Shown: piece by piece, positions 24,504 to 28,427 of the stretch
Position numbering within the stretch: position 1 is the first letter of the stretch
Layout of the letters: the number at the start of each line of letters is the position of its first letter
Assembly (NCBI GenBank): GCA_026418935.1
Contig: JAOAAJ010000008.1
Coordinates: forward strand, 1 to 35,015
Source of the DNA: Caloramator sp.
GTDB lineage: Bacteria; Bacillota; Clostridia; Clostridiales; Caloramatoraceae
Length of the DNA stretch: 35,015 nucleotides
Reading direction: 5' to 3'
Made by a program: the position numbers and the translations under genes
The notes under the pieces: generated by a model
Databases searched by the model: none
Told to the model about the DNA's origin: nothing
The model's input: the letters and a program-made list of their open reading frames with translations, nothing else

Positions 24504-25268
24504 ATGAGATGTGGTTTATGTTTAACAGGTGGTGGGGCAAAGGGTGCTTACCAAGCGGGAATATTAAAATACTTTAAAGAAAATAATATGAACTTTTCTG
24601 TAATTACAGGAACTTCAATAGGTGCAGTAAACGGATATTTTATGTTAAAGGGTGCCTATGAACAAATGAACAATTTTTGGCTAAGTATGCAGCAAAATAA
24701 ATATTTTGATTCACTAAATATGGTTGTAGAAAATAGGCTTGTTATAGAGGAACTTAAAGGACTTGAGGGGATAGACGAAAATATAGACTCTTTCTATGTA
24801 AACTATGTTGAAGTAAAGGGTTGCAGTATTAATGAAGTTATTATAGATATAAAGAATATGCCCAAAGAAGAAGCACTTTTGTCTATAAAGGCAAGTTCGC
24901 TTTTACCCTATAACTACAATGGCGATCCAACTAAGGTTAGTGCAAAACTGCTTTTTGAACAGTTTAAAATAGACCTGCAAGAGGGAAAATATGATGGTTA
25001 TAAACTTGATGGAGGAATACTAAATAATTGCTTATTGCAACCATTTATAAAGGATAAGGTTGATAAGATTTTTATAATTTCACTATCTAATGATTTTCAA
25101 GTGCCAGAATATATTTATGAATATTATAAACGGGATGATATAAAAGTCTTAGAGCCTAATTTTGAAGTAAAGCCAGAGGATACAGTAAACTTTAGTAGTG
25201 AGTTTTGTACAAAGCTTTTCAATTTAGGTTACAAATATGCTGAGGAAATATTTAAGGGGCTAATTTAG
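24504..25268 (+). CDS. Patatin-like phospholipase
   Basis: The protein has 254 residues. The oxyanion-hole motif is GGGAKGAYQAG (about 9-18). The nucleophile elbow GTSIG has Ser38, and the second catalytic residue is Asp169 in DGG. It is a serine-type acyl hydrolase of the RssA/YlbK-like soluble group, with no signal peptide. The substrate is not known. ATG follows GGGGGTGAT. It converges with rsgI and shares a terminator. Confidence 0.92.
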   Translation: MRCGLCLTGGGAKGAYQAGILKYFKENNMNFSVITGTSIGAVNGYFMLKGAYEQMNNFWLSMQQNKYFDSLNMVVENRLVIEELKGLEGIDENIDSFYVNYVEVKGCSINEVIIDIKNMPKEEALLSIKASSLLPYNYNGDPTKVSAKLLFEQFKIDLQEGKYDGYKLDGGILNNCLLQPFIKDKVDKIFIISLSNDFQVPEYIYEYYKRDDIKVLEPNFEVKPEDTVNFSSEFCTKLFNLGYKYAEEIFKGLI

Positions 25269-25274
25269 CCCCTT
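25254..25274. terminator. Bidirectional terminator over both stop codons
   Basis: AAGGGGCTA and TAGCCCCTT form a 9-bp stem around ATT. The stops of the patatin gene and rsgI both lie within it. Confidence 0.8.
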
Positions 25275-26126
25275 TTGCTTCTTTATTTGATTGTCCTTTT
25301 CATTCAATGGCGGTGAAGTATTTTCATCTGAATCTTTACGATTTTGCCTTAACCTATTTTCTATTCTTGGCAGAATTTTATCCTCTTGATTCTTTTTGTT
25401 TTTTACATTTTCTTCAATCTTATTTTTAAATTCTTCTCTTATTCTGTTTGATTCATTTTTATCCTTTAAATTTTCTTTTTTATTAACATTATTCTTATCT
25501 TCTTTTGGTATTTGTTTTTCGGTTTGTTTATCCTTTTCCTGCAATTTTTCTTTAATTATCTCACGATTTTTAGCTTTCTCTTGAATATTTTGTATTTTAG
25601 CATATACCTTTTCAAAATTTAATTTTTGTTTTTTCATTTCAGATGTAAATTTATTTAATTTAACATCGCCTTTATCTATTTTAATATCAATCTTTTTAGC
25701 TTTATTGTTATAGTATTCATCTGTTATATACTTTTTTTCCTTTGCCTTTTTTACAATAAGTATAAGTCCATCATCGATGTTTTTGTTTTTAATTTTAACT
25801 GAACTTAGTACATTTTCGGCGTCTTTGTTTAGAGGTACAACATTTATAATTCTATTAAATCTATTTATATCTATTTTAAATTGAGGGTTTATTGAAACAG
25901 TCATAGAGGCATAAACTTGATTGTACATTGTTATAAATGAACCAAGTAGTATGCATAAAAGCAAGGAAGCAGCTATTAAAAAGGGCTTAAAATCTGGCTT
26001 TTTATATGAATATTCTTGTCCTATTTGAAGTTTTTCATTAGACTTAAATTTTATAAATTCTCCTGTTTGAGTAAATAGGATGGCTTCCTTACCATCAACC
26101 TCAACAATAATTCCTTTTTTAATCAT
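25260..26126 (-). CDS. rsgI: RsgI-like anti-sigma factor
   Basis: The protein has 288 residues. An N-terminal RsgI_N domain (about 1-40; GIIVEVDGKEAILFTQTGEFIKF) would bind SigI in the cytoplasm. One membrane segment (about 47-66) follows. The extracytoplasmic part opens with MTVSINPQF, where Asn80-Pro81 matches the self-cleaving site described for the SEAL domain of RsgI proteins. The C-terminal 120 residues or so are extremely Lys/Glu/Asn-rich and look disordered or coiled; no carbohydrate-binding module, as in thermocellum RsgI proteins, is seen. ATG at 26126 has AAGGTAGGTG upstream. It overlaps the sigI end by 8 bases. Confidence 0.9.
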   Translation of the reverse strand: MIKKGIIVEVDGKEAILFTQTGEFIKFKSNEKLQIGQEYSYKKPDFKPFLIAASLLLCILLGSFITMYNQVYASMTVSINPQFKIDINRFNRIINVVPLNKDAENVLSSVKIKNKNIDDGLILIVKKAKEKKYITDEYYNNKAKKIDIKIDKGDVKLNKFTSEMKKQKLNFEKVYAKIQNIQEKAKNREIIKEKLQEKDKQTEKQIPKEDKNNVNKKENLKDKNESNRIREEFKNKIEENVKNKKNQEDKILPRIENRLRQNRKDSDENTSPPLNEKDNQIKKQKGLN

Positions 26127-26778
26127 CTTTTTCACCTACCTTTATATTGAGGTATGATTTAATATACATTAAGTCACTATCTGTTAAGATCAAAATAAGG
26201 GCTATTAGATACCTTCTCCATTTTTCAATAAACTTTTCACTCTTTGCTGTTAATAGGCATATCTGCTTTATAGGTAGTTGTTTTGTTTTAATTAGCCTTT
26301 CAACTATTTGATTTTCACGAGAAACTAAAAATGCAACATTTATTAGCTCTTCTCTGGTATCCTTGTGTTTTGGTGAATTGTTAACTAAGTCAGAGAAACT
26401 GATTCCATATTCCTTTAGCTTTAGTGTAAAATATGCGATCTCCTGTGCCCTAATTTTGTTTTCTTCTTCTATTTCATACTTTTCCATCGAATTTTTGGTT
26501 TCAAATGTAATGAGTTCTTCATCTCCAAGATAAACGCTAATGTTTTTTGTGCTTTTTCTAAAATAATCTATAAGTGAATTTTTAATTATCACCTTTGCGT
26601 AGGAGAAGAAATTGCCCTTTTTGTTATCATAGGTTTCAATAGATTTATTAAATGCAATAAGTGCAATACTTAATTCATCATCATTTTCCCAAGAGAGCCT
26701 TCTTTTACATATACTTGATGCAATTTTATATACAAAATTTTTGTTTTCTTCTATAAATTTTTCTCTGTCATTAAGCAT
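26119..26778 (-). CDS. sigI: RNA polymerase sigma factor SigI
   Basis: The protein has 219 residues. The N-terminal region 2 carries ENDDELSIALIAFNKSIETYD and FFSYAKVIIKNSLIDYFRKS, the SigI-type sigma-2 signature. The C-terminal half (about 100-210) has the SigI-specific domain. SigI is released when its partner RsgI is cleaved, and it directs envelope-stress or polysaccharide-response genes. The start lies after AAGGGGGAAGAGG. Upstream is a SigI-like promoter motif, suggesting autoregulation. Confidence 0.93.
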   Translation of the reverse strand: MLNDREKFIEENKNFVYKIASSICKRRLSWENDDELSIALIAFNKSIETYDNKKGNFFSYAKVIIKNSLIDYFRKSTKNISVYLGDEELITFETKNSMEKYEIEEENKIRAQEIAYFTLKLKEYGISFSDLVNNSPKHKDTREELINVAFLVSRENQIVERLIKTKQLPIKQICLLTAKSEKFIEKWRRYLIALILILTDSDLMYIKSYLNIKVGEKDD

Positions 26779-26802
26779 CCTCTTCCCCCTTTCATAAAAT
26801 AA

Positions 26803-26831
26803 TACGAATAAAAAGTAAATTTTTATAGGGT
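26803..26831 (-). promoter_or_regulatory. Putative SigI promoter for sigI-rsgI
   Basis: On the minus strand ACCC (26828-26831), within ACCCTA, is followed 19 bases later by CGTATTA (CGTA at 26803-26806). SigI promoters have a C-rich -35 and a CGnA -10. The -10 is identical in its first seven bases to that on the other strand (26874-26880). Confidence 0.5.
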
Positions 26832-26848
26832 AAAAAAATTTTTTATTT

Positions 26849-26877
26849 GCCCCCCTAAAAAAATAAAAAAGGACGTA
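26849..26877 (+). promoter_or_regulatory. Putative SigI promoter for the DUF5667 gene
   Basis: CCCCCC (26850-26855) and CGTA (26874-26877), within CGTATTA, are separated by 18 bases. It lies 38 bases before the start codon. The C-run is conspicuous in an otherwise AT-rich gap, and no sigma-A -10 is seen. Confidence 0.55.
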
Positions 26878-26915
26878 TTAATAGGTGAAAACAAAAAATT
26901 AGGGAGGGATTTAAA

Positions 26916-27962
26916 GTGAAAAAATATTTAGCTTTATCAACAGCACTATTACTTATGTTCAATATTACAATAGCAAAGGCAGATGTTCAAGGTGCAGATG
27001 CTGGAATAACTCCAGATAGTATACTTTATCCAGTAGATAAGCTTATTGATGAAGTAAAGATTTCACTAACCTTTGATGAAGAAAAGAAGGCAGAAGTTAC
27101 AGCAGATGTAGCAGAGGAGAGACTTGCAGAGGCAGAGGTTATGGCAGAAGAAGGTAAAGAGGAACTTGTAAAACCTGCGGTAGAGGAATATCAACAAAAG
27201 ATGGATACAGCACAGGAGACAGTACAAAAGATAGTCTCTGAAGAGCCAAAGGATGAGACAGTTACTGAAGAGGCTGTAAATAAGGTTAATGAGTTAAAAA
27301 ACAGAATAGAAAATAGATATAAAAATTCAATTGAGGTTTTAAATAAAATACAAGAGAAGGTATCTGAAAATGCAAAGCCTACTATACAGAAGGTTATTGA
27401 ACTTCAAACACAAAAGAAGCAGACAGTATTAAGTCTAATTGATAAAAAACAGGAGATGTATAATACAAGAAAACAAGCTGTTGAAGCAAGAAAGGCATTA
27501 GAAAAGGCGAAGGAATCAAATAATGAAGAAGAAATAAAAAAGGCAGAAGAAGCATTAAAACAAGCACAAGAAGCACTTGAGGCTAAAAAGCAGGAGATGA
27601 AACAGATAAGAGAACAGGCAAGGGAAGTTGTAAAGACAAGAAATGAATTAAGAAAGCAAACAAGGGAAGTTTTAAAGGAAGAAGTAAAGAATGGGACAAT
27701 AACAAAGGAAGAGGCAAAGCAGGTTGAAAGGGAAATAAACCACAGCCTTCTTAAGAAGGATGAAATAAAAGATGTTAATAAAGAGATTAAGAAGGAAATA
27801 AAGAAAGAAGAAATAAAGCAAAAGGTAGAAGAGAAGAGAGAAAAAATTAAAGAAAAAATTAGAGAGAGAAAGAACAAAAAAGATAATAATAAAACAGAAG
27901 ATGGTAAAATAGATTCAGAACAAAACAATTCTACTAACAACGATGAAGTTAAAGAAAACTAA
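26916..27962 (+). CDS. Secreted DUF5667 coiled-coil protein
   Basis: The protein has 348 residues. A signal peptide (about 1-22, ending near AKA) is followed by a DUF5667 block (about 30-130; GITPDSILYPVDKLIDEVKISLTFDEEKKAE, then AEERLAEAE). Long Lys/Glu/Gln-rich helices, probably coiled coil, run from about 130 to 330, and the tail is Asn/Glu-rich. No catalytic motif is visible. The start is GTG, with AGGGAGGGAT upstream. It is read from the putative SigI promoter and is the likely SigI target. A minus-strand frame across it is a composition shadow. Confidence 0.82.
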   Translation: MKKYLALSTALLLMFNITIAKADVQGADAGITPDSILYPVDKLIDEVKISLTFDEEKKAEVTADVAEERLAEAEVMAEEGKEELVKPAVEEYQQKMDTAQETVQKIVSEEPKDETVTEEAVNKVNELKNRIENRYKNSIEVLNKIQEKVSENAKPTIQKVIELQTQKKQTVLSLIDKKQEMYNTRKQAVEARKALEKAKESNNEEEIKKAEEALKQAQEALEAKKQEMKQIREQAREVVKTRNELRKQTREVLKEEVKNGTITKEEAKQVEREINHSLLKKDEIKDVNKEIKKEIKKEEIKQKVEEKREKIKEKIRERKNKKDNNKTEDGKIDSEQNNSTNNDEVKEN

Positions 27963-28069: not shown

Positions 28070-28098
28070 TTGACAAAACTTTCAATTGTTTATATAAT
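28070..28098 (+). promoter_or_regulatory. Consensus sigma-A promoter of met operon
   Basis: TTGACA and TATAAT are both perfect and separated by exactly 17 bases. It stands 25 bases before the first riboswitch. No second promoter is seen between the two riboswitches. Confidence 0.85.
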
Positions 28099-28122
28099 CT
28101 TAATCAAGAATTAAATAAAACG

Positions 28123-28251
28123 CTCTTATCAAGAGAGGTGGAGGGACTGGCCCGATGAAGCCCGGCAACCTGCGAAAGGCAAGGTGCCAAATCCTGCAGC
28201 GAAAGCTGGGAGATGAGAGAGGAGTGCCTCTTTCATCAAAGAGGTTTTTTT
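28123..28251 (+). ncRNA. SAM-I (S-box) riboswitch, copy 1
   Basis: P1 arms are CTCTTATC and GATGAGAG. The S-box core AGGTGGAGGGACTGGCCCGATGAAGCC-type blocks, GGCAACC and the AAGGTGCCAAATCC block are all in order. The P4 hairpin has loop GAAA. An intrinsic terminator CCTCTTT/AAAGAGG with T tract (28227-28251) follows. SAM binding would favour this terminator. It is followed by a second near-identical copy. Confidence 0.97.
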
Positions 28252-28298
28252 ATTGTCTATTTAGGAAAATTATATATATTGTACAAAATAATAACAGG

Positions 28299-28427
28299 CT
28301 CTTATCAAGAGAGGTGGAGGGACTGGCCCGATGAAGCCCGGCAACCTGCGAAAGGCAAGGTGCCAAATCCTGCAGCAAAGGCTGGGAGATGAGAGAGGAG
28401 TGCCTCTTTCATCAAAGAGGATTTTTT
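28299..28427 (+). ncRNA. SAM-I (S-box) riboswitch, copy 2
   Basis: It is the same structure as copy 1, 176 bases downstream. It differs by two bases in the P4 loop (AAAG instead of GAAA) and by one at the terminator tail. Its own terminator (28403-28427) is complete. metN begins about 80 bases on. Confidence 0.97.

Follow-up and report, generated by a model that had tools for sequence, protein, structure and literature searches.

The locus described here raises the question of whether one SigI-type sigma factor transcribes both its own operon and the divergent gene beside it. It lies in a contig of Caloramator sp. (GenBank assembly GCA_026418935.1, contig JAOAAJ010000008.1, positions 1 to 35,015), and this whole stretch of 35,015 nucleotides is called the window. 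The sigI product scored 193.5 bits against TIGR02895 (cut-off 185) and 42.6 bits against Sigma70_r2, and it matched the solved C. thermocellum SigI6 and SigI1; against the subfamily model NF006175 it reached 224.9 bits, below the cut-off of 244. One SigI of this kind was found in the window's genome. The rsgI gene lies on the strand of sigI and its start overlaps the sigI 3' end, so that an RsgI partner adjoins sigI; the rsgI product carried RsgI_N (44.5 bits) and RsgI_M (54.7 bits) matches, both above the Pfam cut-off. A SINP stretch seen by eye in RsgI is presumably the self-cleavage site in the outside domain. The product of the divergent gene scored 95.5 bits against PF18915 (cut-off 27). 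Its DUF5667 domain is N-terminal and is accompanied by long charged helices; the start was signal-peptide-like by eye, the sequence was rich in Lys and Glu, and the predicted structure was all-helical (mean pLDDT 65, pTM 0.50), so it is probably a secreted Lys/Glu-rich helical protein. Comparison of this model with the PDB gave no match at E <= 0.001. The top PDB rows were generic helical bundles and the model pLDDT was 65; no function was drawn from the fold. Beyond the DUF5667 gene, at 28070-28395, stood a perfect TTGACA-17-TATAAT promoter followed by two very similar tandem SAM riboswitches and then an ABC transporter set. The coordinates of the locus are collected in Table 1.

Table 1. Genes and predicted promoter elements of the sigI/DUF5667 locus in the window.
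Feature	Coordinates	Strand	Basis
sigI, alternative sigma factor, 219 aa	26119..26778	-	TIGR02895 and Sigma70_r2 profile matches
rsgI, anti-sigma factor, 291 aa as listed	25260..26135	-	RsgI_N and RsgI_M matches
DUF5667 gene, 348 aa, GTG start	26916..27962	+	PF18915 match
Intergenic gap, sigI / DUF5667 gene	26779-26915		
-35 CCC, predicted sigI promoter	26828..26830	-	-24 to -22 from C of CGTA
A-tract, predicted sigI promoter	26820..26824	-	read in sequence
-10 CGTA, predicted sigI promoter	26803..26806	-	pattern and motif model
-35 C-run, predicted DUF5667 promoter	26850..26855	+	read in sequence, pattern
A-tract, predicted DUF5667 promoter	26857..26863	+	read in sequence
-10 CGTA, predicted DUF5667 promoter	26874..26877	+	pattern and motif model

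A preliminary description of this DNA had placed two divergent motifs in the gap, and these proved real. The pattern CCC-N21-CGTATTA occurred exactly twice in the window, at 26830-26800 on the minus strand and 26850-26880 on the plus strand, and was absent from 100 dinucleotide shuffles of the window, giving a chance expectation near zero. In each copy the CCC began 24 bases before CGTATTA, with an A-tract between them. The spacing of 18-19 bases first given for the C-rich -35 held if the minus hexamer was taken as ACCCTA and the plus distance was measured from the last C of the six-C run, giving 18; counted from the CCC triplet, the minus distance was 21. The claim that no sigma-A -10 is present was borne out insofar as a consensus scan found no sigma-A -35/-10 pair in the gap, including at either motif, but it was slightly too strong, since TATTAT (5/6 to TATAAT) lies inside the minus motif.

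Comparison with published promoters agreed with the assignment to SigI. The SigI3 promoters of C. thermocellum are given as CCCYYAAA / CGWA with 13-14 bases from AAA to CGWA in the available passages of PMC10575876, PMC6056542 and PMC4711584. Both strands of the gap had an A-tract in the -35 region and a CGTA -10, with 14 bases separating the AAA at -17 to -15 from the latter. On the plus strand CCCCTAAA also fitted the SigI3-type CCCYYAAA with its C-rich -35; minus-strand CCCTATAAA gave no exact fit to it, and the minus site fitted the A-tract, CGWA and C-rich -35 of the SigI pattern. The motifs are almost certainly SigI-type promoters as judged by their sequence. By the -14 numbering in the consulted part of PMC10575876, the sigI transcript would start near 26792 with a leader of about 14 nt; the DUF5667 transcript would start near 26888 with a leader of about 28 nt. 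Another alternative sigma factor might read the motifs and the link to SigI be incidental, given that the -10 step read by ECF sigmas is X-G-T-Y (the same passages of PMC10575876) and a -GT- type -10 would be compatible with them. This is very unlikely: a -35 made of a C-tract and an A-tract is the SigI pattern, and both the distribution of the site and a joint change in site and sigma, described below, speak against an ECF factor.

Both sites were conserved among relatives. A family search covered 17 genomes, with sigI matches of E 2.2e-46 or better, and sigI and DUF5667 were found in the same 11 of them; the sigI copy in G015 was broken by stops. Comparing the gap with those of relatives, as had been proposed, showed both sites, on both strands, in 10/10 family gaps read (9 relatives and the window). 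The DUF5667 site was CGAA in L012, the most distant of these gaps, and both sites were present in L010, where the sigI copy lies at a contig edge. A position model was built from 17 distinct family sites and then applied to loci outside the training set, with a pass threshold of 8.7 bits (the 99% point of dinucleotide shuffles). It placed 63/67 sigI and 62/72 DUF5667 regions above threshold, or 61/65 and 60/70 without the two genomes that were counted twice (G431/L138 and G398/L147), recognised as duplicates because their contigs had identical lengths. Among the passing DUF5667 regions, the best site in G385 and G386 was AATA rather than CGWA and is doubtful. Four sigI regions (G489, G315, G446, G443) and ten DUF5667 regions (L252, L206, L242, L247, L203, L246, L237, L259, L125, L250) fell below threshold. 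A second null drew 4000 windows at random from these loci; its 99% point was 6.7 bits and its tail reached 23.4 bits, showing that weak single matches are not proof; the tail perhaps came from other true sites among these windows. Across 139 distinct sites, C stood at -24, -23 and -22 in 129, 128 and 128, and A at -17, -16 and -15 in 132, 139 and 126.

The two -35 positions lay between 3 and 826 bases apart, with a median of 30 (52 rows, two genomes counted twice), and the idea that the promoters keep a fixed arrangement was therefore dropped. In two rows, G385 and G386, the distance was negative because the DUF5667 site there is the doubtful AATA one. The -10 elements were only 51 bases apart in three genomes, so that simultaneous occupancy of both would hardly be possible.

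The bare consensus alone was not enriched in the five genomes of the genus. In these, CCC-N21-CGTAWNA gave 24 matches versus 71 for the reversed control, and a looser pattern gave 29 versus 29. The gap pair was distinguished from other genome matches by score and position. Five matches to CCC-N21-CGTAWNA occurred in the window's own genome; the gap pair scored 38.3 and 38.5 bits under the motif model, high by construction as both are training sites, and the other three scored -4.9, 5.1 and 5.1 bits and lay inside open frames of 459-596 codons, with AAA in register in two. The 16 matches outside sigI/DUF5667 gaps in the genus reached at most 15.0 bits (L347 in the congeneric G015). The fixed-pattern pair was found in 4/5 genus genomes; in the fifth, G015, the spacing was slightly different and both sites were matched by the looser pattern. 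Neither pattern revealed another convincing site elsewhere in the window's own genome.

SigI and DUF5667 occurred together well beyond the family. In a class sample of 293 genomes, all 13 above the DUF5667 cut-off had SigI (E 1e-15 or better), compared with 78/293 overall; two weaker DUF5667 matches below the cut-off were both in genomes without SigI. Among 225 genomes of the order, 68 had DUF5667, 73 had this SigI (E 1e-60 or better) and 65 had both, leaving eight SigI genomes without DUF5667 and three DUF5667 genomes without this SigI. Counted by genus, this SigI was present in 26/28 DUF5667 genera (Fisher p ~2e-9, shared ancestry ignored). That the site and this SigI subfamily co-occur argues against reading by an ECF factor. 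The divergent layout within 4 kb was kept in 55/65 genomes with both genes. One SigI genome, G196, kept the sigI site and had no DUF5667 match, suggesting that the sigma factor does not need DUF5667.

Genes separated from sigI were informative as to whether the plus-strand motif has a function of its own. Of the ten genomes in which DUF5667 was not found beside sigI, several of them drafts with the two genes on separate contigs, eight had a site before DUF5667 (weak in G507, CGAA) and two (G379, G011) had none. Twelve extra DUF5667 copies were found, and 8 of the 11 scored had a site; C. ljungdahlii and C. ragsdalei were among the genomes with a site before an unlinked or second-copy gene. Its presence before 8/10 unlinked genes shows that the DUF5667 site is not explained as a side effect of an adjacent sigI promoter. 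It could still be supposed that only the sigI promoter works, that the DUF5667 gene is served by a housekeeping promoter and that the plus motif is a remnant left by sharing the intergenic region, as some DUF5667 genes elsewhere lack such a site and some are preceded by a riboswitch. We regard this as extremely unlikely in view of the motif at unlinked genes and second copies and the lack of a sigma-A pair in the gap by consensus scan.

Other arrangements were seen around these genes. In G232 (L123 1732-4235) a DUF5667 frame came directly after sigI, at the expected place of rsgI. A second short RsgI-like protein followed rsgI in some Clostridium (L137 696-1283, L144 403-978, L113 6025-6603); the L137 copy had both RsgI domains, and those of L144 and L113 were judged by eye. 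DUF5667 relatives also occurred in archaeal and other uncultured genomes (L148-L152). In Caloramator sp. mosi_1 (L136), both sigI and the DUF5667 gene were interrupted by several stops and frameshifts, which may reflect an assembly problem. A c-di-GMP-I riboswitch stood upstream of DUF5667 genes at L121, L125 and L259, and ahead of the upstream gene at L122; none of these four DUF5667 genes was divergently paired with sigI. The C. ragsdalei DUF5667 gene adjoined MotA/MotB-like genes by eye. We read the riboswitches and MotA/MotB-like neighbours as signs of a surface-related role for DUF5667.

The site and the sigma factor had changed together in C. tetanomorphum (G411; L141, L258). TGTA replaced CGTA at 3/3 examined sites, which precede sigI, the linked DUF5667 gene and a second, distant DUF5667 gene, and it occurred in 0/143 other sites above threshold. 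The SigI of this species had Asn for Asp at position 72, alone of 77 aligned sequences (two genomes counted twice). At position 75 it had Lys for Arg, as did five further sequences, none of which goes with TGTA. By alignments, allowing a one-residue offset in chain numbering, positions 72 and 75 correspond to Asp101 and Arg104 of SigI6, both of which appear among the four residues that interact with C:G(-14) and G:C(-13) according to the part of PMC10575876 consulted. Replacing an Asp that would accept a hydrogen bond from C by an Asn that would donate one to T is chemically sensible in this one genome. The joint change in the sites and a SigI contact residue ties the sites to this sigma, which argues against an ECF factor, and supports one sigma reading both promoters. 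C. tetanomorphum represents a natural experiment in which sigma and promoters seem to have shifted specificity together while the circuit was kept, and it yields a one-residue, one-base prediction. No paper on SigI in C. tetanomorphum was found in the open-licence literature.

The wider regulon is the weakest part of the case. The strict pattern CCCNNWAAAN{13,15}CGTAWATA was searched in 218 genomes and matched in 54, with 89 matches (some overlapping) versus 79 for the reversed control. It was barely above control overall and stood out in SigI genomes only: 72 matches versus 31 controls in 69 genomes with this SigI, and 17 versus 48 in 149 genomes without it. Twenty unlinked sites were inspected, 19 from SigI genomes. 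Four preceded small related lipoprotein-like genes (L311, L314, L324, L326) and three preceded protein kinase domains (L312, L321, L325, the last partial). A common downstream gene lay about 400 bases from L319 and L320, the latter in a genome without this SigI. Seven of the remaining 13 sites had no downstream gene found by script, including L309 and L327, which lie inside long frames, and no common downstream gene was seen for the rest. Sites before lipoprotein-like and kinase genes in some Clostridium were not found in the open-licence literature searched.

Taken as comparative evidence, the published promoter pattern, the sites at unlinked DUF5667 genes and the joint change in C. tetanomorphum bear out the initial proposal of a SigI unit that would read its own and the DUF5667 promoter. 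Sequence evidence supports the existence of the two promoters, their conservation and their reading by SigI, and we put at about 0.92 the probability that back-to-back SigI promoters drive sigI-rsgI and the secreted DUF5667 protein, with released SigI amplifying its own production. In C. thermocellum, RsgI holds SigI until stepwise cleavage by self-cleavage outside, RseP and a ClpP-type protease, according to portions of PMC12203970. Studied SigI/RsgI pairs of this sort are the source of both the proteolysis step and the positive loop proposed here: on a cell-surface signal, RsgI would be degraded and SigI set free. SigI would then bring RNA polymerase to both gap promoters, and the switch would amplify itself while making the secreted DUF5667 protein; signal, activation and amplification in the window's system are all to be read in this conditional sense. 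As a guess, envelope stress may induce the DUF5667 protein, which would be helical and either located at the surface or associated with the cell wall. A broader proposal, which we consider doubtful, makes this secreted protein the ancestral core SigI output in Clostridiales; outside the cell it would give feedback on RsgI by binding either the charged RsgI tail or the wall that RsgI monitors. The same proposal holds that a natural Asp to Asn exchange, as in C. tetanomorphum, allows SigI and its promoters to shift the base at -14. The DUF5667 family gains a regulatory context from these data, and its gene is likely a main SigI target in many clostridia other than the well-studied cellulosome producers. 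The open-licence literature yielded no paper on DUF5667 or PF18915, and the part searched described neither a conserved role of DUF5667 as SigI target nor the change in specificity.

A similar gene arrangement is familiar from cpxP / cpxRA, a divergent envelope-stress pair in which the regulator operon stands back to back with the secreted-protein gene that it controls. The window shares the regulator operon divergent from a secreted-protein gene; however, cpxRA is a two-component system and the window's regulator is a sigma factor. CpxP itself acts as an inhibitor, and the resemblance of the DUF5667 protein to it is one of gene layout. Bacillales SigI (ACCCCC / CGAA) resembles the window in having a C-rich -35 followed by conserved As upstream of sigI, but its -10 is CGAA instead of CGTA, and the available text of PMC4711584 mentions no divergent DUF5667 partner. 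SigI autoregulation is already known, including that of C. thermocellum SigI factors (the same text of PMC4711584). C. thermocellum SigI3, as described in excerpts, resembles the window in promoter sequence, since its promoters also combine a C-rich -35, an A-tract and a CGTA-type -10. In those excerpts SigI3 serves mainly pectin-degradation genes, whereas the recurrent target of the window-type SigI is the DUF5667 gene, and the window's genome has a single SigI of this kind.
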